NCBI GenBank assembly: GCA_000310025.1
Contig: FN649728.1
Span: 4,945,129-5,009,128 of the forward strand
Direction: 5' to 3'
Origin: Ectocarpus siliculosus
Lineage: Eukaryota > Sar > Phaeophyceae > Ectocarpales > Ectocarpaceae
DNA length: 64,000 nt
Shown: in pieces, positions 36,583-49,200 of the stretch
Layout: every line of letters begins with the position of its first letter
Numbering within the stretch: the first letter of the stretch is position 1
Program-made: the position numbers and the translations under genes
Notes under the pieces: generated by a model
The model's database searches: none
Told to the model about the DNA's origin: nothing
What the model saw: the letters and a program-made list of their open reading frames with translations, nothing else

Positions 36583-39500
36583 TCACTGGTCTACCCCTCC
36601 CATCCCTTCTTCCGGCTTGGGACGGCAAATGCCGCATCCCAGCACATACTCGTGTTCTCCGTTCTTGGCCTTGTCAGGGTGTTGACCACCGAACAGGCAG
36701 TGGGCACCACCAAGGCAGGGCTTCGGCTTGGCGGCGAAACCGTGCAAATGACAGGCGTCGCAGAAGTGCATTACTCCGCCACAAAAGTAGGAAGCAACTT
36801 TTCGGCAGCACCAGTAGCACTTGTGCTCCATGAACTCCTGCGACAGCCAGCACGCGAGGATGTGTACGGGTTAACTTACGAGTGTTTTTTTCGGGAGAGT
36901 TGCGGGTGTCTGCGTGCAAGAAAATCGGCTTGCTTTGAGTAGCTGGGCCTGTCTCCCAGCAATCTTCAAGAGGGGAGGATACGCGACACCGCCAGTGTTC
37001 CAATTGTGCAGGCCATTGCCGTCTTGGTGGGGGGTTACTCCAGGGAGACAAACATTGGTCCAGAGCAAGGCGAGACGAGCTAGGGTTGACTACAGCCAGC
37101 CGTTCATCGGCAAAGGACCAAATGCTACAATCACAGTAGAGAACGATGGGAGAAGAAAGCGCTTATTAGTGTCTCTGATCTCGCTTTTTCCAGCCAATTT
37201 TTTTCCATGTAGCAGCGTAGAAAAGCCACCCATCTATCTCAAAAACATGGGCGGGGCGCTCTAATCTGACAAGTAGAGCTATGTGGAATCAAACAAACAA
37301 GAACTAGTGGGACTTCTCTATAAAAAAAGTGCCCCATGCATACTTCTTCGATTCTATCCGACAATCCTCTGCCGAGAGTGAAGATATAGAACACCAGACA
37401 AGTACCTGCCCGTGTTCGGAGCAGCTCGCACCGCCACTGCCCGCCGAGCACTTCCCACAGAGAAGTTCGGAAGGCTTGATGTCAGCGAGCGCCCGCTCCG
37501 CCGCCTGCGCGTCCGCGGCAGCCCCGACCCCGGGCCCGACCGAAGCCTCTCCTCCCCCACCACCCGCCGGAGGGGGAGCAGGCTCGCAACTGACAAGCCC
37601 ACCAAAGTACGGCTTGCGGCAGGAGTGGCACTGACAATGGATGCGCGTGCGCAAGAACGGGATCGCATGGAATGCGGGAGAAGGGCAAACATAAACAGGG
37701 ATGGCACATGCATCGACGTATAGTCCTAGAGACCAACATGGACACACACAACAGTCAGAGGTACTTCGGTGCGGAGTCTACTATAAGGGGCACATCTGGG
37801 AAACGTGCCTTGCCGTGTGACAACGGGTACAGTATATGGTTAAAAGTTAATCACATCCTAGAGAGGAACGACTCTACACAGAGCGATTGTTCAAAAAGCA
37901 GAGCACCGCACTCGTGCTTCACCTGGTAGTAGGAGTATTTCTTGAGGGCCCTCTTCACCAACTTCGCCCGCTCTTCCTTCGTTAGCTCGGCGGGCTTCAC
38001 AGCATCATCGTCACCAGCGGCACTTGCTCCCGAGCCTTTACCTTCCTTGGCGCTATCAGCCTTGGGTGCAGCAGCAGCAGCAGTAGCAGCAGGTGCGTTT
38101 GAGGACTGCACTGACGCCCCATCACCCGCCATCCTTCTCATCGCTGCCGTCGCCGCCGCGGCTACTCTGGCATTTCTGTCCCGTGCTATGGGGGCGGGAG
38201 ACACGTGAAGCCTCAGCATCCCGGCGGCCGCAAGGTCAACCCTCTCCCCCGCGCGCTGGTCGTCTTTGTTTTCTGCCAAGCGGTCAACCCCACCTCCACC
38301 GACTGCGCCTGCGGCCATCACAGCATCCGCGACGGCGCCCGCCGCTTCTTTCTCCTCTTGCTCCTTCCTGGAGAAGCCAGCTCCACGTTCCAGCGCACCC
38401 CACTCGCCTCCAATGGACTCGGGGCGGTAACCCACCCGCCTCGCCAACCCCAAGCCGACAGAGAAATCGCCGGCGCCGAAGTGCACCCTTCTGGGGGATG
38501 CTTCTCGGATGCCTCCACGGTCGGCGACAAAGTCAGCAACACTTCGCTTCTTCCCGCGGTTCACTTTCGTTCGTGCTTTGTCGCCAAGGTCGACAGCTGC
38601 GATGTTGGGGGCAATACCGTCCTTTCGCTTTGGCTTTTCCTCAACCTTAACCACCTCTTCGAGAGAAGAACCAGCACCGGCACCAGCACCCGGCCGCCGC
38701 TTGGAGCTTGATTCGAGTTCGACGCCCGCACCTTTCCCTCCCGCCCCTTCTCTCTTCCTCTTGGCGAGTGGCGAGGGAACGACGAAAACCCCCTCTTCCT
38801 CTTCCATATCGAGGGCTTCATCGTCGCCATCATCGCCCTCATCAAGCCAAGTGGGCTTGTGGCGAGGTCTGGGGCTGCGTGCGCGTTCAGGCCACGGCAA
38901 TATGCCGACCACATCAAGCGCCAAGCCCTCGTCATCGTCCACTTTGTCGTTATCGGCACCGGCCCCACCGCCTTTGGATTCGAGTTTTCTGGGCTCATCA
39001 GAATCGCTTTCGGCCACGTCTTTGATTTTTCCGTGGCGGCTCGTCGCTAGCTTCAAGACCTTGGGATCCCCATCGCGGCCAGGAGCTCCCTTTCGAGCGC
39101 AGTTATCCGCACCCATCTCAGAGCCCTCAGAAGATTGCCCAGCTGCTGGTGCTAGTGCTGCTTCACTGCCCTCCAAGCGGCCCACCATGCCACCCCTCGC
39201 CGAGGCATCCATGACATTGTCACCTCCGGCACTGACACCAACGCCCCCCCCTTTTCCCTCTCGGTCACCCTGCGCCAGCTCTTCTTGGCCGACATCCAGG
39301 CTCTCCGGGGGAGTCGACGAAGCCACGGCGCGGCACACGCGGGGAGGGGGAGGCAGTACAGCACCAGCTGCGTGTGCGGCTGGTTTTCCTGTAGCCTCGC
39401 CCGCATCACGTTTACGGAATGGAGCATCATCACCACGTCCCTGAACAGAGTCTCCCTGCTGCTGTTGGTTTGCCGCAACTTGGACGTTCTCTACTACGCT

Positions 39501-42500
39501 CGCATCTACCGCCATCGCACCGGCAGCAGCAGAAGCACCAGCAGCAGCACCAGCAGCAGCAGCACCACCACCACCACCACCGGCAGAAGCACCAGCAGCA
39601 CCAGCAGAAGCACCAGCACCAGCACCAGCACCAGCAGAAGCACCACCAGCGTCGCCGGCAGCTACCTTCCACTGCTTGGATCCGAACGGAACGCCACCAG
39701 GCAGCGGCCACTCGTTTAAACCCTTCCTAGATTTTCGCCGCACACGCCGCCTTTCCTCGAGCACGGCCTTCCCCTTCTCGAGTTGTTGTTCTAGGCGCTC
39801 GCGAACGAGAGGGGAACGTGGGTGAGCTGCCGGGGGGTCGGCTGGTAGACCACCCCTCGCACCCCTCGCTGCCCCAGGGACCTTGACACCACCGGCCACC
39901 GCTCTCTTCATCGCCACGTCTGCTCGCGCGATGAGCATCTGTCTCCTTTTGTTGAGATACTCTTCTTGGGAAACAGGTTGCTGCTGCTGCTGCTCTTGCT
40001 GTTGTTGATGCGCACCTCCTGCATGACCAGATCCTCTCGCTGCTGCTCCCACTCCTGCTGCGCTCGCCCCTGCGCCTACCCCCAGCCCTGGCCTAGCCGC
40101 CCCAGCTACGCTGTTATGCGCGTATGGTGGAGGCATCATAGGAGCAAATGGGGGAATCCTCCAATCCATCCCCATCCCCAGTTGCCAGTCGCCTCGGGGC
40201 GCTGCCCCCTGCATCAGCTGCAAAGGGGACATCGGGTGTGCCTGAGCCCCCGCCGCCGCCCCCGCCGCCCCCGCCGCCCCCGCTGCCCCCGCTGCCCCCG
40301 CTGCCCCCGCTGCCCCCGCCGCCCCCAACCCCCCTGGTGCTGCCCCTGCTGCCGCTGCTGCCGCTGCTGCCGCTGCCGCAGCTCCTCGTGCTCTGCGTGG
40401 CGGGTGAAATCCCGCCGCCTGGATGGGGGGGTACGGGATTTGAAGCGGAAAAGGTCCCCCACGCCCCCTCGCCCTCCAGTTTGCGGGGTGTCTATCTTTT
40501 TGTCGATGGCGTACTAAACCCGCCATCCGCCACCGCATCCCCGCGTGGAGACTATCCAGGGAAGGTTTCTGCGCGAAACACAAGCAAAGGGGGGGGTGCA
40601 CGTGGTGGTGGTCGTCGTGGTACTTAGCTTGGACCTGTGTGTAACTCACGAAAACAACTCCCTGGTGGTGGTGGTAGTGGTGGTGGTAGTGTCGCACGTC
40701 AAGATTTTCAACGTACACCCTGACAACAAGTTCGTACGAGAGAAAAATATGATGTTTCTTCTGGTGCGTTGCCCTAGGCTCCAGATCTACAGTAGTCTCT
40801 GGCTTGCAACCACTTCGTCTTTGCTGAGCAATGACAATGAGCATCACCATCATACATGAAACAGTGCCCAAATCTAGCACGTCGGGTACTTTTGATGTGC
40901 ACTCAAAAATAATCCAAGTTGCTGCCTGACATGACAGACCGGCTGTGGTGTCGACATGACAAGACATGACAAGACAGGACTGAACGTGTCCATTAGTTAT
41001 GTCAAAGGCTCAGATTGGGTCGAATTGTTCTATTCAGCCTCTCGCCTTTTTGCAACCAAAAAAACGATTTTCTCAGCATCTTGGGCCCGCTGCACGTCAT
41101 TTCAATGTATCAATCCAAAAGCACAACACAGACACTGTCTGCCGGAGCTTGGAGTGTGTCATCTCACTCCATACGAATGAGCAAACTTCCATCGTCCTAT
41201 ACAGTTTACCAAACACAATATGGTACGTCGTAGTCCGCTGTAAACGGAGCACGATGGAAGCACATTGCCATACACAATACGCTAGGATGTTGTGCCTAAC
41301 ATTCTCGGGCTAGATAACCACGATCGATAAACGACGGGGGTCATACGAAAAGAACAAATAACGGCTACGCTTCCGTACCTTGAGGGGAGGTAGCTCGTCT
41401 GCGCGGAGACGTTGGATGGCCAGCTCCTAACAAGCGAAACGACAAACCGAGGCGACACAACACAGCCAGTCATGGCATTGGCGTTACGCGACATCAGTTA
41501 ATGGCGCAAGGGTGGGGGTTGCGAAACACCGTGCGTATCCCAGGGAGAGCAACACTAGACAATATGGCCAACTCACGGCGGTGACATACGAAGCGACAGG
41601 AACAAAATGAGGGGCGGCAGCGGCACGCTGATATGTTGGTGTACACCAACCGCAAAGCAGACGTGGTGCAATCAAGCAACAACACGTGATGGGAGTACAC
41701 AGAGAAGAGTGCCTCACATCATGAAAAACTCACTCACGTTCACGTTGATGACAACATGAACACAGTCCCATCGGGGTATGTTCGAGCTGTAGTGTTTGCC
41801 GACAACATTGCAATGCTAACACCAAACAGGATGAAGACACCCGCGTTTAGTAGAAACATCAAAAAATATCCAACGGTATCGAGTTTTTGTAGAGTTTCCT
41901 TTCTCCGCCTATTCCATGATACTTCTTGCTGTTTCTCCCCAAAAAGACTTCGACAATTTCAAGGGCAAAAACTAAAAACAGAATTAGGACAGTATCGGGA
42001 AGAGGTGGCCCATGTCAATTTGACCGACACAATGGGTTTGATGGCACAAAGCAAGAGGTACACGCATCATGTAGTCAGTGCTTCGCTGAGTGTAAACAAC
42101 AGTCGCCACCCCAGCAATACCCATATTTAGGATGGTGGAATCTTTTGTCTGAGGCACCTACTGATGGACCTTGGGCTACTGACGCGATTGGCCTTCACAA
42201 TCAGACGAAAAACAAGACGAATCCCCCCCTACAAGGCTCATGTCCATCCAGAATCTACCACAAAATTTTCCATTCAGACATTAACGAGACCAAGGTCTAA
42301 ACCGCCGGCATGTGGTCACCGCAGGAGGCCCTCGCGCATTTGTACTTGTTTTCCGTGGTGCTTACTCGAAAGAGTCTGTCTGGGGTGCCCATCAAAGCCA
42401 GCCAACGGCATCAACTCCGGCCGAATAAAAAGAGGAAAGAGAGGACCTTAAAATCGACTCGGCAGGGGCGAAAAAGACGAATCAGTAGTACTCCGGGTGG

Positions 42501-45500
42501 GCGTCAAACAAGCAGCCAACGAGTCTCTCATGCAAGACAGGCGCTGCGTACGATAAACCCTACCTCGACTTGATGGGCTAGTTCGAGCTGCTCCGGGATG
42601 CCATCACACTTGCCGAGATGGGGGTGCAGAGCCAACACCTGCAGCGAGCCAACAACAATGGTAATGTTGTGGGCATGTACATACAATGAAAACGTCAGCT
42701 TCGTCATTGGTTTTGTATCGGTCACTGAGAACTACCTGTCCCCGCGCTCAGGTTACGTGTTGTTACAGGTCTTGATTCGACGTGCGATCAATTCAGTACC
42801 AAGCACACCGCTTACAGCAGTGAAGCATCACGACTACCACTCTCAAGTATCTGGAACTATTGAGTACTTTTACAAGACTGAGAGCTCACACCTTGTCCGC
42901 ACGGCAGACCGGGCAACTCATGAAGCCAAACGTTAGACGCGCGGTCGGCCGTCCTCGCATCAGCTGCTCGCGGCCGCACGAGACGTGCACGAAGTGGCCG
43001 CACTCCAGCTTCACGACAGTACAAGAACAGTTGGATAGACGTAGGGCAGTGTCGGACGCGGGTGGAGGCGAATGGGCCAGGGCCGAGTACGACATGTTCT
43101 TCAACGACGCGAGGCTAGTACTGTACTCCTTCATCTTTAGGGGGGCAGTCGTGCCAACTTGTACTTGCAAGATGATGCTCAACCTAACTTGCGCAACTGA
43201 AAAGGGTTGGTGAACAGCAACACATCCCTACATTGCACTGCGTTGAGGCGAAATCATTTCCTCTTGGCCACAAGCGCTTGTCGCAACAACATGACGTATT
43301 GTGTGCGGCAACAGCCACAGCCACATCATTCATTCTTCAACGACGCTTGCGTTTTTCCCTTGGCTACTAAAAAAACGGAACATGACTTCATTCAAGCATA
43401 GACGAGCGAGCGGACAAAGCGCAATGGGCACGGCGTGTCCAAGAACGGTGTTATATAGTCTCAATACTCTACTTGCTATTTGCCCAAAAAACAGCCGACC
43501 AAACGAAACAACGGCGGTACATACGGCACGAGAAAGAGCTAGCCAAAAGTGTCACATAGACTGTACCTTGACGCAAGGAGCCGCAAGAAGTGATTCGGTC
43601 CAACACACGTTGCAAAAGTCGTTCCCATCCACCTCGGCAGAAGGACAGTCTGGTTCGATGCACGGGATACATTCCGCCGTACCTGAGCGCGCCCAAGATA
43701 CCGAGGAGGTCGCTGATTTGATCGGTACAATGCTTGCCTTGCCCGATGAATGGCACGTAGCCTCACAGCAGTGGAGCCTTCACCACGCTAGACAGTCGTA
43801 TCTACTCATGTCCAAACTGTCCAAACTCACCTGGGGCAACGAAAACCTTGAGCTTCATCACCCTCGCCTCATACACAATAATTAATACCCGCATTTTGGC
43901 ACCCGCACGCATTGTACACACAGCGAATGCTAGTAAAACCGCACACTTTGCCAAGGCTGAAAATCCCTTTACTTCCTTCTCACCGGGTCCGCGACAAGGG
44001 TGTCCGCACTCCAGTTTCTTTCGACACCCCTCGTTTGCGCGCTCACGACACTCCTCACGTCCACAGCAAGGAGGGGCTTGTAGGGCACCCTCTCTACCCT
44101 CTCCACCCTTGTTAGCCTCCTCGCCGTCGGCGGCAGCGGTTTTGTCGTTACCTCCACCGCATACAACTGTTGTGGGACAGAAACGGACGGGCCCGCGCGT
44201 GAGGAAAGCAGCAATACCATAGAACGAGCAGCGCTCCTGTAAGGAGTAGGTACAACACCTTCGGCTGCTACTGATACTACTGCGAACGAGGCCAAGGCAT
44301 GTACACAAATCGTGAATAGTAAGTATGCTGTCACAACCAAAAGGAAATGCTGTAACAACCTGGTTCTTCCTCCGCAGCATCCCCACAGTATGTGCACTTG
44401 GGCTTCGCCTGGTGAGCCGCCCATCCTTCGCAATCGAACCCGATGTGGTAAGGCGTGGCTCTGCAGGCCCCGCAGAAACAGGTAGAGCATGACGGGCAGC
44501 GGAACCTGTGGCGCCCGTTGTGTCTGGAAAATAATACCAGTGCAACGAGGCAACGCCAGGGGCGAGGGTGCATGGAGCGTACCGTCATCGGCGGTACATA
44601 CCGAGGTATGACAGGAGCCTCGCAGCGAATGCTGTACGCACTACCAAACCCCGTATTTCGAGTCATCTCCGACAGCAACGCATTCCTATCTCGTGACGAT
44701 GTCATCTGCAAACATGCCTACTAAAGGACCAAACTCCCCGCCCAACACATGTGCCACACATGGCTCCGCGCCAACAGAATACTGGAACGTCTTCATTCGC
44801 ACTTCGCCCTCTCCTTAGATCTCACTTTAGCCATGCCTCCACCCCAAAAAACAAACTGATCTCACCCAACGGGTCTGAACCTGAGCCTGAGTCTGTCTCA
44901 CCTCATGGCCGATCTTCTCGACAAGTTTGCGCCCTTCGGCAGCTCCTTTGTCGCCACGTTGCCTCCGCCGCCGCGGGCAGCAGCTTCGTTTGGAACCAGT
45001 TCGTACACCTTGTGATAGCAAATATGGGAAGGCGTCACAGTGTCAAAAGCTGCTGTATGGGCCACTGGCTACGTACATGAAGTGTGGGTTAAGGTCAAAA
45101 GAGAGCGGATATGTTGCAACACTGCAATGACGCTCGGTTTCCAACGTCGGGATTAAACCTACACAAATCACACAAGGTGGCACGCGGATATGCTTCCGCT
45201 TCAGAATCCAATAGTCCAAAAATATCGGCATTCATTTTTTGGCCTGTCGGCAGGTACCGCCATAAAGCCTTGCCAGCACCTACGCTCGGTAGCGCTTCGC
45301 GAAACATACAAAAACAGCCAGCTTTCAACAGACACTAACCATCAACATTTAGCACGGCCTTTAACACTTAGTAGTGATGCTGCAGAATGAAAACCAAAAG
45401 CACTACGCATACACACCATCGGGCACCCAGGACATTGCACGAACCCCGGAGGCAGCGCTTCAATGAGGGACTCCACACTATCCGCCGCACGTTTCGGAGC

Positions 45501-46026
45501 ACCGGGATTGCGACCCGATGCTGCTGACACGTCTGAAGCGGCTGCCGGATTGTTGGAGTCATCCCCCGCTGACCCATCTCGTACCAATATCTCACTTCCA
45601 GGAGCTCCAGCATCGTCCGATCCCGCAGCTTGTGCCGCCAGGTCTGACGGTGCCGATGCTACTATTGGTGATGTGCTTTCTGGTGTTCTGCCGTCTCCCG
45701 TTGCTCCGGCCGCCTGAGGTGTTTCCAAGGCGGCTGATGCCGAAGCACCGCCGGCTCCAGCTTTTTCGCTAGCGTTGCCCAATTCGCTAGCCACGGGTGC
45801 GTGCACCGCAGCCCAAGCCAGAGCCGCACTCCGTTCTTGCTTGCCTGATGCGTCGGGGTTGGCCGCTGCTTGTGCACCTGATGCTGCTGCTACTGCTACT
45901 GCTGCTGCTCCTGCTCCTGCTCCTGCTGACGCTGGCTGTTGCTCGCCGGGGGGCGCCTGCGCCGGGCTGCCATCACCGATCGGCACGCCGAGAACCGGCT
46001 CGCCGTCACCAGCCCCTCCGTGTGCT

Positions 46027-46066
<40 letters not shown>

Positions 46067-46104
46067 CCGAGGATCCGACGCCGTCGCTGTTACCGACAAC
46101 AGCA

Positions 46105-46141
<37 letters not shown>

Positions 46142-46296
46142 AGGTACTGCCGTTGTTTCTGTTCTCGCCAGGTAAGCTGGCCGCGACTGGAGCAGCGCCC
46201 TCGCCGTCAAGCGCTCTCCCATTCAAAGCTTCAAGCGCCGTAGATGTACGCAAAAAAAAAGGTTGCGGTTTCAGATGGCTGAGCGCAGTCATACAA
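36583..46296 (-). CDS. MYCBP2: RING-Cys-relay E3 ubiquitin ligase, MYCBP2/PHR type, with giant linker
   Basis: E3 ligase that passes ubiquitin from E2 over two cysteines to a hydroxyl or amine. Exons, high to low: 46296 (tentative)-45417, 45008-44902, 44523-44360, 44166-43984, 43682-43567, 43008-42892, 42638-42564, 40568-37923, 37630-37406, 36837-36583; all joins keep phase, giving about 1587 residues from the ATG at 46292. Order: poly-Ser/Ala/Gly start; IBR-like Cys-rich module (FVQCPGCPM, RFRCPSCSTCFCGAC, PYHIGFDC, CTYCGD); CGHPCRG and CIPCIEPDC; RING (FCNVCWTESLLAAPCVK, CGHFVHVSCG, FGFMSCPVCRADK); low-complexity linker; tandem-cysteine domain (CHSCRKPYFGG to GCGICRP). The relay cysteines, in FGGLVSC and VASYFC, are present. 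The C-terminal half follows human MYCBP2 closely, but the giant MYCBP2 N-terminus is absent as far as can be seen. The first exon may be preceded by others. Confidence 0.9.
37923..40568 (-). CDS. Single 882-codon exon: linker between RING and tandem-cysteine domain
   Basis: One exon of 2646 nt, phase 0 at both ends, preceded by CTTGTGTTTCGCGCAG and followed by a GT after YSYYQ. It has poly-Ala, (GAA)n, Gln-rich, Gly-Ala-Ser repeats, acidic stretches (LDMEEEEG), basic patches (RRVRRKSRKG, AKRKREG) and a charged end (ELTKEERAKLVKRALKKYSYYQ) that leads straight into the zinc-binding CHSC. No folded domain was recognised. On the opposite strand the same DNA gives long GC-rich open frames, which are shadows. 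Confidence 0.85.
45860..46165. repeat. GCT/GCA trinucleotide runs in the ligase first exon
   Basis: Several (GCT)n runs, the clearest at about 46029-46066 and 46106-46138, encode poly-Ser on the minus strand and are separated by Asp/Gly/Asn-rich text. A run near 45885-45930 encodes Ala/Gly. Such runs commonly vary in length between individuals. Confidence 0.8.
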
Positions 46297-49200
46297 CTGC
46301 AGTAGGAACAGCAGAGGCTAACCTGACACCAATACAAGATCGGTTCTCCTTGTTTCCTGGACAGTGTGATTCCCCAAACCAATGAGAGCTACATACCTGC
46401 CGTTTACATGGTTTACCGCACAGGCTCCATATTTCAACCGGAATAGCGGCCATATTGTAATAAATGCTTGTTTCAGTGGGGCGGACTATTAACCCAAGCT
46501 GAAACTCATCACCTGACTCAGCCAGTCGAGCAACGCACTTTTTTGCTTGTAGCCCTTGACAAAGTGGAACACTACATTTGATATATATATATATATATTT
46601 CCTAAAAAACTGTAACGTGTGCCTATCTCAAGTTAAAAGCTCAGCTACTTCTTCTCATGTACGAACACGTGTCCAACAGCAAGTTCAAGGAATGTGTCCC
46701 CTACACGGTACGCGAATCAATTTCTTCCACACGCTATGCATAGGGCCAATTTGTACCAATGCTGCATACCAGGTAAACCCGTGTACCTGGACCCGCTGCC
46801 GGAAAGGAAGAGTCCTCCTCGCCGCTATCGTTTCCCAGGTCGATAGCCTGTTGACACAATCAATCGCATATGTTGACCGCCGCGCGAGAACGAGCGACAA
46901 AAAGTTCAGCGAGCAAAGCAGGCAGACGGTCGCAAGATTCACATTCTGCGCCGTACTCGAACAAGTCAGGTACCTGATATTCATCTTCACGGAGAAGAGT
47001 GCCTGAATTCTTGCCCATGGTTGGCTTCAAGCGTAGCCTACGCAGCTTTCTATTGAGTATACATCTTGGATAAAGTGCCGAATCGATGAAATTTCGGGGG
47101 TTACTATTATCGGGGACAGGGGTATGTGGGGTACGGGTACGGTCTACCGAACCCCTGCCTGTCTATTTCATGGTAAAACCGTTAAAATTGAGTTCTTCGC
47201 GTAGGCAGCCCGCTTCAAGCGCCTGCTGGAATAAACAAAACAACACTAGCTGTGCGCCCCCCCCGTTTCCCAATACTTATAAGTTTTGCATCTTTCCGAG
47301 AGACAATATCTATTTCTCCGAAGTGTTCTGTTTCTTCTTACGTTGTGTAGCCGCCCCCGGGGCATTCACACGTTAAAAGTAACGCACCCATTCCCGCAAT
47401 TGTTGTTGTTGTTCATGTGGTTGTTGTCGTCACCATTTTCTCGTTGATTCTTACTTCTGAAGTACAACCGTTCTATCCATATTCGAGGGCTACCTCCCCT
47501 GTACTCCGGCTGACAAACACACGAGTTGCGCTGTCTCAAGTGTGTTGGTGCCCAACGTCCAAGTGCTGTACGGTACCGCTGGACTCAGAAGGCGTCGCTC
47601 GCCATTTCAGTACGATATCCAGCAAAAACAGAACAAAACAAAACGAATGTGGTCGTTCACAACCAACACAGGCTTTCTTGTAAACTATGTTGAAGCCCGA
47701 TAACGTGGGTTCCAGCGAGAGAGGCCAACGGCAAACGTTAGTTTGTTTGTGTGCGCGTGCGTCCGGGGAAGGCCCAACCACCGAAAAAGAGCCCGACATC
47801 CCCAGGTGGGCGTGTGTGTTGTAACTGGTCAAGTCCACCAGCCAAAATATATACTTCTTCAGTAAAAAGCTTGCAGCCAGTGCGACAACCTAGCCTCCGG
47901 TCTACAGCAGTGACCTAATACCTGCCGGTTGGGAAAGGTCGCTTAAGGGTTCTATCGATTGTATCAACCATTTTTAAGGCCGAGGCCGAAGCTCTTTCGC
48001 CCCGTGGTGGTCTTCTCTGTTCTGTCCTTCGGCCCCCTCTCCCTTTGAACTTGTCACAATGTTAACGCCCCCCGCGATGCTCTCAAAGGATTAGATATCG
48101 GTGGCAACTTGGTAGATATGAACTCGACGGTTCACGTATACCAATTACAACAAGGAATCCCTCCGGAGTGGGCTCATACAAGTAGCATAACCAGGGTGAT
48201 GCAAGACAAAATAACAAGCAAATACAGCACGACCAGCCCACAGCTGGCTGCCGGGTCCCAATTGTGGCGTTTCCGAAGCTCAACTCACACGGTTGACGTG
48301 CTTGGACTAATATAGAAAGACGAAAAGACCAACGATACAGAGCCAAAGAGCAATAACTGCATGTACAGCAGTCTTACGACGAAGGCCCACCCCACCCAAT
48401 ACCAACAGCTAAAATACTTTTATTTTGGTCTGACTGGTCTCGGTGGGTCTACCTCGTTCCCTCGCACAGCAGGACATGCTGGTAAGAAATAAACGGCGAC
48501 GGTTGCCCGAGACAAGAGGTTCTTCAATGGTGGCTATTCTGTATATCTATTCTGTGATCTTGTGAATACGGTGGTGATTTCTAACAGAGTTCCGAAGAGG
48601 CAGATGGTCGGAAAACACAGCAGCCGTCCAGCAGCGGTGCGGGTAGAGCTTGTCCTCAGCCGGGCGTAAAATAGAGTGGTCTACTATGCTATTAGCATTT
48701 ACTCCTATACCTTCATAAGCAATCTTGGAATACGTGAAAAACGAACGATCCTCTCCGATCTCAATTCCACACCTGAAAGGCTGACGCCCCCGCCCCGTTG
48801 GGATGCTGCTGCTGCCAAGCAGCCACTAACGAGGCATCCAAAAACGGCGCTGGTTCGTCCCCCTCGCTGTCGCTAGATAAAGAGATGACCTACCGGGGGA
48901 GTTGGGGCAGACAAGTCGTGTAGGGCAGGTCCGCAGAGGGTGTGTCGGCGGCACCCTTGCATCCTTCATCAGCTTCACAGCTTCACAGCTTCACAGCTTC
49001 ACACCTACCCACAACTATTGTACCTCTATACATGACTCCTGCTGTAGATATATCCTTTTCTAGCCATCGACACATGTCCAAAGCTACTGCCTTCACAAAC
49101 CAACCCACAAAAGAAAGTGTGTTCAAATGTTTATCATGGTCGAACGCAGTTACTACTGCTCACAGGTACCGCTATCCATGGAGCGAGCGAGGTGAAGTGG

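Follow-up and report, generated by a model that had tools for sequence, protein, structure and literature searches.

A candidate brown-algal RING-Cys-relay ligase with a very long insert between its RING and tandem-cysteine domains

Analysis of a 64,000-nucleotide window of the Ectocarpus siliculosus genome (assembly GCA_000310025.1, contig FN649728.1, forward-strand positions 4,945,129 to 5,009,128; positions below are those of the window) revealed a reverse-strand gene model for a candidate ubiquitin ligase of the RING-Cys-relay (RCR) type, in which a long open exon, E12, separates the exons of the RING from those of the tandem-cysteine (TC) domain. The animal enzyme MYCBP2 tags proteins with ubiquitin via a two-cysteine relay. 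The open exon between the RING and the TC domain is real, and what is new here is a known kind of enzyme found in an unexpected lineage and with an unusual spacing. The favoured explanation, to which we assign a probability of about 0.6, is a brown-algal ligase of the RCR type whose relay still acts in cis, with the insert looped out from a single hinge.

Both flanking domains align with MYCBP2 (PDB code 5o6c), as the earlier note on this DNA had proposed, with an E-value of 2.7e-15 for the TC domain and 41% identity for the module taken without the insert. The last Cys of the RING and the first Cys of the TC domain are 927 residues apart, as compared with 65 in 5o6c, in agreement with the human spacing of fewer than about 100 residues given in that note. 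Its estimate of about 900 intervening residues (25 + 882) holds as to the giant size of the gap, but it missed one exon, and the 5′ limit of E12 is not secure. The missed exon, E11, has 48 nt and phase 0 at both ends; the 16 residues that it encodes, ELAIQRLRADELPPLK, align with KALMRLEYEG of MYCBP2, a segment that we take to be helical. A query composed of the RING, the E11 segment, the last 22 residues of E12, and the start of the TC domain, which omits most of the insert, aligned with 5o6c in one stretch (query 15–157 to chain 4–144) with an E-value of 8.3e-23. Judged by these alignments, E11 and the last ∼20 residues of E12 supply putative counterparts of the helix in the human linker and of the segment leading into the TC domain, and both flanks of the insert, the linker-helix segment and KRALKKYSYYQ, are conserved with MYCBP2. 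Consequently, the insert appears to fall at a single hinge, after the linker helix and ahead of the TC lead-in, and with insertion at a single point the RING and TC domains could still pack as they do in MYCBP2.

Exon E12 (40568–37923) contains 882 codons without a stop over 2646 nt, is preceded by AG and followed by GT, and has phase 0 at both ends, so that the open exon, the order RING–linker–TC, and the phase kept across both junctions are all as the earlier note described them. The stop counts of the six frames across the exon are 0, 24, and 36 in the forward direction and 10, 11, and 13 in reverse; in 500 first-order Markov resamplings of E12 the longest open reading frame in any of the six frames averaged 260 codons, with a maximum of 513. 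Measured from stop to stop the frame extends from 41009 to 37851 (1052 codons). The probability of finding no stop, computed for each segment of E12 from the frequency of stops in the two remaining forward frames, was lowest for 39516–38093 (P = 4e-9). This segment is free of tandem arrays and has 474 codons and no stops, as compared with 12 and 26 stops in those frames. It was 0.004 for 40252–39652 and 0.015 for 38067–37923, rising to 0.22 for the first 61 codons (40568–40384) and to an uninformative 1 for the 43 codons of Ala/Gly repeats that extend to 40253. Two in-phase acceptor-like sites within E12 would give starts at 40418 or 40217, where 13 and 12, respectively, of the 16 bases before the CAG are pyrimidines, as compared with 11 for the start at 40568; the 13 acceptors of the gene model have 8 to 12. 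The difference in acceptor strength is small, and the 5′ boundary is not secure. As a start at 40217 leaves E12 with 765 codons, a gap of ∼810 residues between the RING and TC domains is the safer minimum, if there is no in-frame intron inside E12.

The insert is made up of poly-Ala, Gly-Ala, Gln, acidic, and basic stretches (Ala 21%, Gly 15%), with 340 of the 882 residues in low-entropy windows and with short tandem arrays of units of 3–18 nt. No Pfam family matched it up to an E-value of 1, and no NCBIfam family was found. In an AlphaFold2 model the mean confidence score (pLDDT) was 40 and 758 of the 882 residues fell below 50, which is weak evidence as the run used the single sequence and no alignment. 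Two helices were modelled with confidence, at about 201–225 and 253–285, and a third, at 864–881, joins the TC domain. A Foldseek search with this low-confidence model gave no matches, which means little, and mean TOP-IDP values did not separate the insert (0.181) from the TC domain (0.176). On the model, the insert is likely to be disordered. Runs of three basic residues occur nine times, as compared with a mean of 2.2 in shuffled sequences (1 of 2000 shuffles reached nine), and acidic-flanked V/I motifs twice, against a shuffled mean of 0.04 (4 of 2000 shuffles); both patterns were picked after the sequence had been seen and are leads only. The pattern K[KR]x[KR] is not above composition (1 versus 0.84 in shuffles). 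At 38807–38604 on the reverse strand (insert residues ∼588–655), acidic-flanked VFVV and VVKV resemble SUMO-interaction motifs and lie beside basic clusters. The idea that the insert is a copied or mobile element was not supported: two segments of it (108 and 280 of the 882 residues) have no paralogue in the genome, with a best other hit at an E-value of 0.065 for one and none up to 10 for the other.

Four residues of the TC domain are invariant with 5o6c: the relay Cys, the Glu in SELLCG, the catalytic Cys in YFC, and the His in CDACH. Of the 16 Cys residues in the human TC segment, 15 have a Cys counterpart. The relay and catalytic Cys, and the positions of the triad, are assigned by the human numbering. 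C4520 is named as a catalytic residue in PMC12664034. The Cys-His-Glu triad of RCR ligases, stated in PMC9527308, is present as the invariant columns C213, H224, and E174 of the two-row alignment. Two features of the domain go beyond what the earlier note had described. The mediator loop, from the relay Cys to the Glu, is threefold longer than in the human enzyme (39 versus 13 residues) and Gly/Ala-rich, forming a second insert far closer to the relay Cys than that of E12. The residue directly after the catalytic Cys is Gly (codon 36780–36778, reverse strand), where the human enzyme has Phe; the Phe of HFC is retained, and human CHDDF is replaced by CHLHGF. With the three Phe residues that we take to form the human pocket, a pocket of this kind, which makes for Thr selectivity and is dispensable for the relay, was not found in the algal domain. 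The three-Phe cluster of the human enzyme and its preference for threonine are described in PMC6769291.

From these data we infer the packing of the module, its relay chemistry, and the origin and role of the insert as follows. The product would be a compact ligase of ∼1700 residues comprised of an IBR-like domain, a Cys-rich stretch, the RING, the linker helix, an insert of ∼770–880 residues, and the TC domain. The RING would bind the charged E2; ubiquitin would move to the relay Cys on the mediator loop and from there to the catalytic Cys, and the latter would esterify a hydroxyl acceptor, with the conserved His and Glu assisting. Lineage-specific growth of repeats at a site that tolerates them is the probable origin of the insert, and if the insert has a function, it would lie in docking or placing the enzyme and not in the transfer.

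Several observations weigh against this reading. There is no stop-based support for the first ∼105 codons of E12, and codon usage across the exon is weak. In a codon model built from conserved exons of the E. siliculosus genome (63 taken, 9 with internal stops dropped, 54 kept), the true frame was the best of six in 53 of the 54 exons, with a mean score of 0.46 and a lowest of −0.16; the open frame of E12 scored −0.07 overall, −0.22 in its 5′ part, and 0.02 in its 3′ part. The +1 frame, with 24 stops, outscored it (0.06), and did so on synonymous codons alone as well (0.14 versus −0.23). For comparison, the TC exons scored 0.12 and 0.02, the RING exons −0.31 and 0.25, and two introns −0.38 and −0.61. 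Codon usage thus gives no confirmation that E12 is coding, and the case for it rests on openness, which is best for the 3′ 765 codons. Moreover, E10 to E13 each have phase 0 at both ends, so that shorter in-frame isoforms are possible. The charge-hydropathy boundary puts the Ala-rich insert slightly on the folded side; the disorder claimed in the earlier note is borne out by the low model confidence but not by this measure. Upstream, the IBR-like match (21.1 bits) lies below the family cut-off of 24.3 bits; it is gone with a 210-residue query, and a 193-residue joined query is also without it. Lastly, the change of Phe to Gly beside the catalytic Cys suggests that the acceptor chemistry may differ.

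The weak codon usage also bears on an alternative in which the mature message has a shorter linker, through an acceptor further 3′ or an in-frame intron, and the giant linker is mainly an artefact of the gene model. The two in-phase starts, 40418 and 40217, with their somewhat richer pyrimidine tracts, the repeat tracts, the missing stop-based support before 40253, and eight donor-like GTRVGK sites within E12 all speak for it. The 474 open codons of 39516–38093 argue strongly in the other direction; by the acceptor criterion applied, the sole other such site inside E12, near 38188, would not keep the conserved tail in phase, and even a start at 40217 leaves 765 codons. We regard a substantially shorter linker as quite unlikely. 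A division into two adjacent genes, the first ending after the RING and E11 and the second starting in the big frame and carrying the TC domain, is very improbable. The frame does have internal ATGs and is open upstream of the acceptor, and the join of the RING and TC halves comes from genomic sequence; but phase 0 is found on both sides, the intron between E11 and E12 (810 nt) is ordinary for this gene, and the domain order, helix, and flanks are those of MYCBP2.

If the exon is retained, the insert could instead be a true flexible tether, with the RING and TC domains uncoupled and ubiquitin transferred over a long reach or in trans. The size of the gap, the longer mediator loop, which could extend the reach, and the low confidence of most of the insert in the single-sequence model are in keeping with this. 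A tether of such length dilutes local concentration, and conservation on either side of the insert, in the helix segment of the linker and in the stretch leading into the TC domain, is unexpected if the domains are independent. Action of the relay domain at a distance, as the earlier note suggested, is therefore possible but not the best reading, and we consider it unlikely. The looped-out insert, long mediator loop, and opened acceptor pocket could also be taken together as a differently aimed, non-animal RCR ligase. Here the insert would dock substrates, possibly via its basic, nucleus-targeting-like motifs and those that resemble SUMO-binding motifs; the lengthened loop would carry ubiquitin over a greater distance, and the pocket, now lined by Gly, would admit hydroxyl acceptors besides threonine. 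This combination is doubtful. The favoured explanation remains a cis-acting relay with the insert looped out at one hinge.

The gene model consists of 14 exons from 47018 to 36583 on the reverse strand, with AG before each exon after the first and GT after each before the last. The phases are compatible, and the model encodes 1701 residues without a stop; its 13 introns measure 74 to 1137 nt. Exons E1–E7 are placed by phase and splice signals, with zinc motifs as the sole further help. We infer that the RING and TC parts are transcribed and spliced as one message; their order, phase, and homology are observed. The TC domain is single copy in the genome, other hits having E-values of 0.089 (with two stops inside) and 0.375.

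Exons of the candidate RCR ligase gene, with positions in the window
Exon	Feature	Position	Strand	Basis
E1	Candidate first exon, MGKNSGTLLREDEYQ	46974–47018	−	inferred
E2	N-terminal exon	46787–46847	−	inferred from phase and GT-AG
E3	N-terminal exon	46397–46554	−	inferred from phase and GT-AG; intron to E4 is 74 nt
E4	Poly-Ser/Ala low-complexity exon with two poly-Ser runs; end is IBR-like, FVQCPGCPM	45417–46322	−	inferred
E5	Middle of IBR-like domain	44902–45008	−	inferred; improves IBR match
E6	Second half of IBR-like zinc domain, FRCPSCSTCFCGACRATPYHIGFDC	44360–44523	−	inferred; below Pfam cut-off
E7	Cys-rich stretch, RECRERANEGCRKKLECGHPC	43984–44166	−	inferred from phase and GT-AG
E8	Zinc residues and first half of RING, FCNVCWTESLLAAPCVK	43567–43682	−	MYCBP2 match, RING family match
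E9	Second half of RING, LECGHFVHVSC...CPVCRADK	42892–43008	−	MYCBP2 match, RING family match
E10	25-residue exon after RING	42564–42638	−	phase, MYCBP2 match
E11	16-residue exon, ELAIQRLRADELPPLK, counterpart of MYCBP2 linker helix	41379–41426	−	alignment
E12	Insert exon, 882 codons, phase 0/0; last ∼20 codons, KEERAKLVKRALKKYSYYQ, conserved TC lead-in	37923–40568	−	5′ limit uncertain
E13	TC part 1; relay Cys codon 37588–37586, mediator loop 37585–37469, Glu codon 37468–37466	37406–37630	−	MYCBP2 match
E14	TC part 2 and stop; catalytic Cys codon 36783–36781, catalytic His codon 36750–36748	36583–36837	−	MYCBP2 match

The RING was recognised by a Pfam search, and no Pfam family matched the TC domain up to an E-value of 1. 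Upstream of the RING, at 44360–45443 on the reverse strand, lies an IBR-like zinc domain divided among the inferred exons E4–E6. A 56-residue query matched PF01485 (IBR) with an E-value of 0.067, which improved to 3.2e-4 when E5 and the end of E4 were added (104 residues). The E4–E7 region taken without E5 gave nothing significant against the PDB (best E-value 0.18), and no Pfam family matched the N-terminal 140 residues. The PHR domain (PF08005) had no match in the whole genome, although the family was also silent in all 14 controls and exons may split the domain.

Kinase matches were used as a yardstick for how unusual such an exon is in this genome. Of 110 matches, three fall in open frames that reach 780 codons or more (823, 1549, and 798), and one of these frames is longer than the 1052 codons of the frame of E12. 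Thirty kinase loci were fetched, each cut ∼1.5 kb to either side of the match, and eight with stops inside the match were dropped; two of the remaining 22 have a homopolymer run of at least five residues in the open frame. The protein of the present model has seven such runs, four in the insert exon, two in E4, and one in the mediator loop. An exon of the length of E12 is thus rare but not alone in the genome, and the gene is repeat-rich; to judge by the runs in E4 and the mediator loop, it appears to tolerate them. Scans of bacterial/archaeal and viral contigs for relatives, with the TC protein or the two-row alignment, gave pattern matches (viral 45 with the protein; bacterial/archaeal 49 and viral 74 with the alignment), none of which was confirmed by tblastn, and these scans are silent on the spread among eukaryotes. 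Elsewhere in the E. siliculosus genome there are 87 matches to the light-harvesting family, as befits a photosynthetic alga. They form clusters on contigs C92, C232, and C488, where many have identical scores, while contig C16 has a group of its own near 100–282 kb. One light-harvesting protein matched PDB chain 9ygv_17 with an E-value of 2e-97 (next best chain 2e-57); a paper that contains the code 9YGV, PMC13219633, deals with photosystem I of giant kelp, and brown-algal origin is accordingly the most likely.

No description of an algal RCR ligase was found in the part of the open-licence literature covered, by titles and abstract openings. If the favoured explanation is true, a brown-algal module with identical catalytic residues places RCR chemistry outside animals and provides a natural experiment on how far the relay tolerates changes in spacing and loop length. 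It also opens two testable questions, namely whether docking of the RING and TC domains is obligatory and whether the preference for threonine is determined by the Phe pocket.

Among known transthiolating ligases, the RZ-finger enzymes RNF213 and ZNFX1 are presented in PMC9527308 as another recently found class; the algal protein differs from them in that no Pfam family was matched in its insert or TC domain up to an E-value of 1. The RBR ligases share with it Cys-based catalysis and the combination of a RING and an IBR-like zinc domain (PF01485, below cut-off) in one inferred chain. Identity as an RBR ligase was rejected, as the order RING1-IBR-Rcat is not found: the algal IBR-like domain precedes the RING, and the C-terminal domain, for which no Pfam match was obtained, matches the TC domain of MYCBP2. 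The closest likeness is to MYCBP2/PAM/Highwire/RPM-1, the RCR E3 of PDB codes 5o6c and 6t7f. The order of RING, linker segment, and TC domain is common to both, as are the relay Cys, the catalytic Cys, the His, and the Glu, together with all but one of the 16 human TC cysteines. The alga differs in the gap between RING and TC domain (927 versus 65 residues), in the mediator loop (39 versus 13), in having Gly for the human Phe after the catalytic Cys, and in a modelled length of 1701 residues; the algal model also carries an IBR-like domain ahead of its RING.

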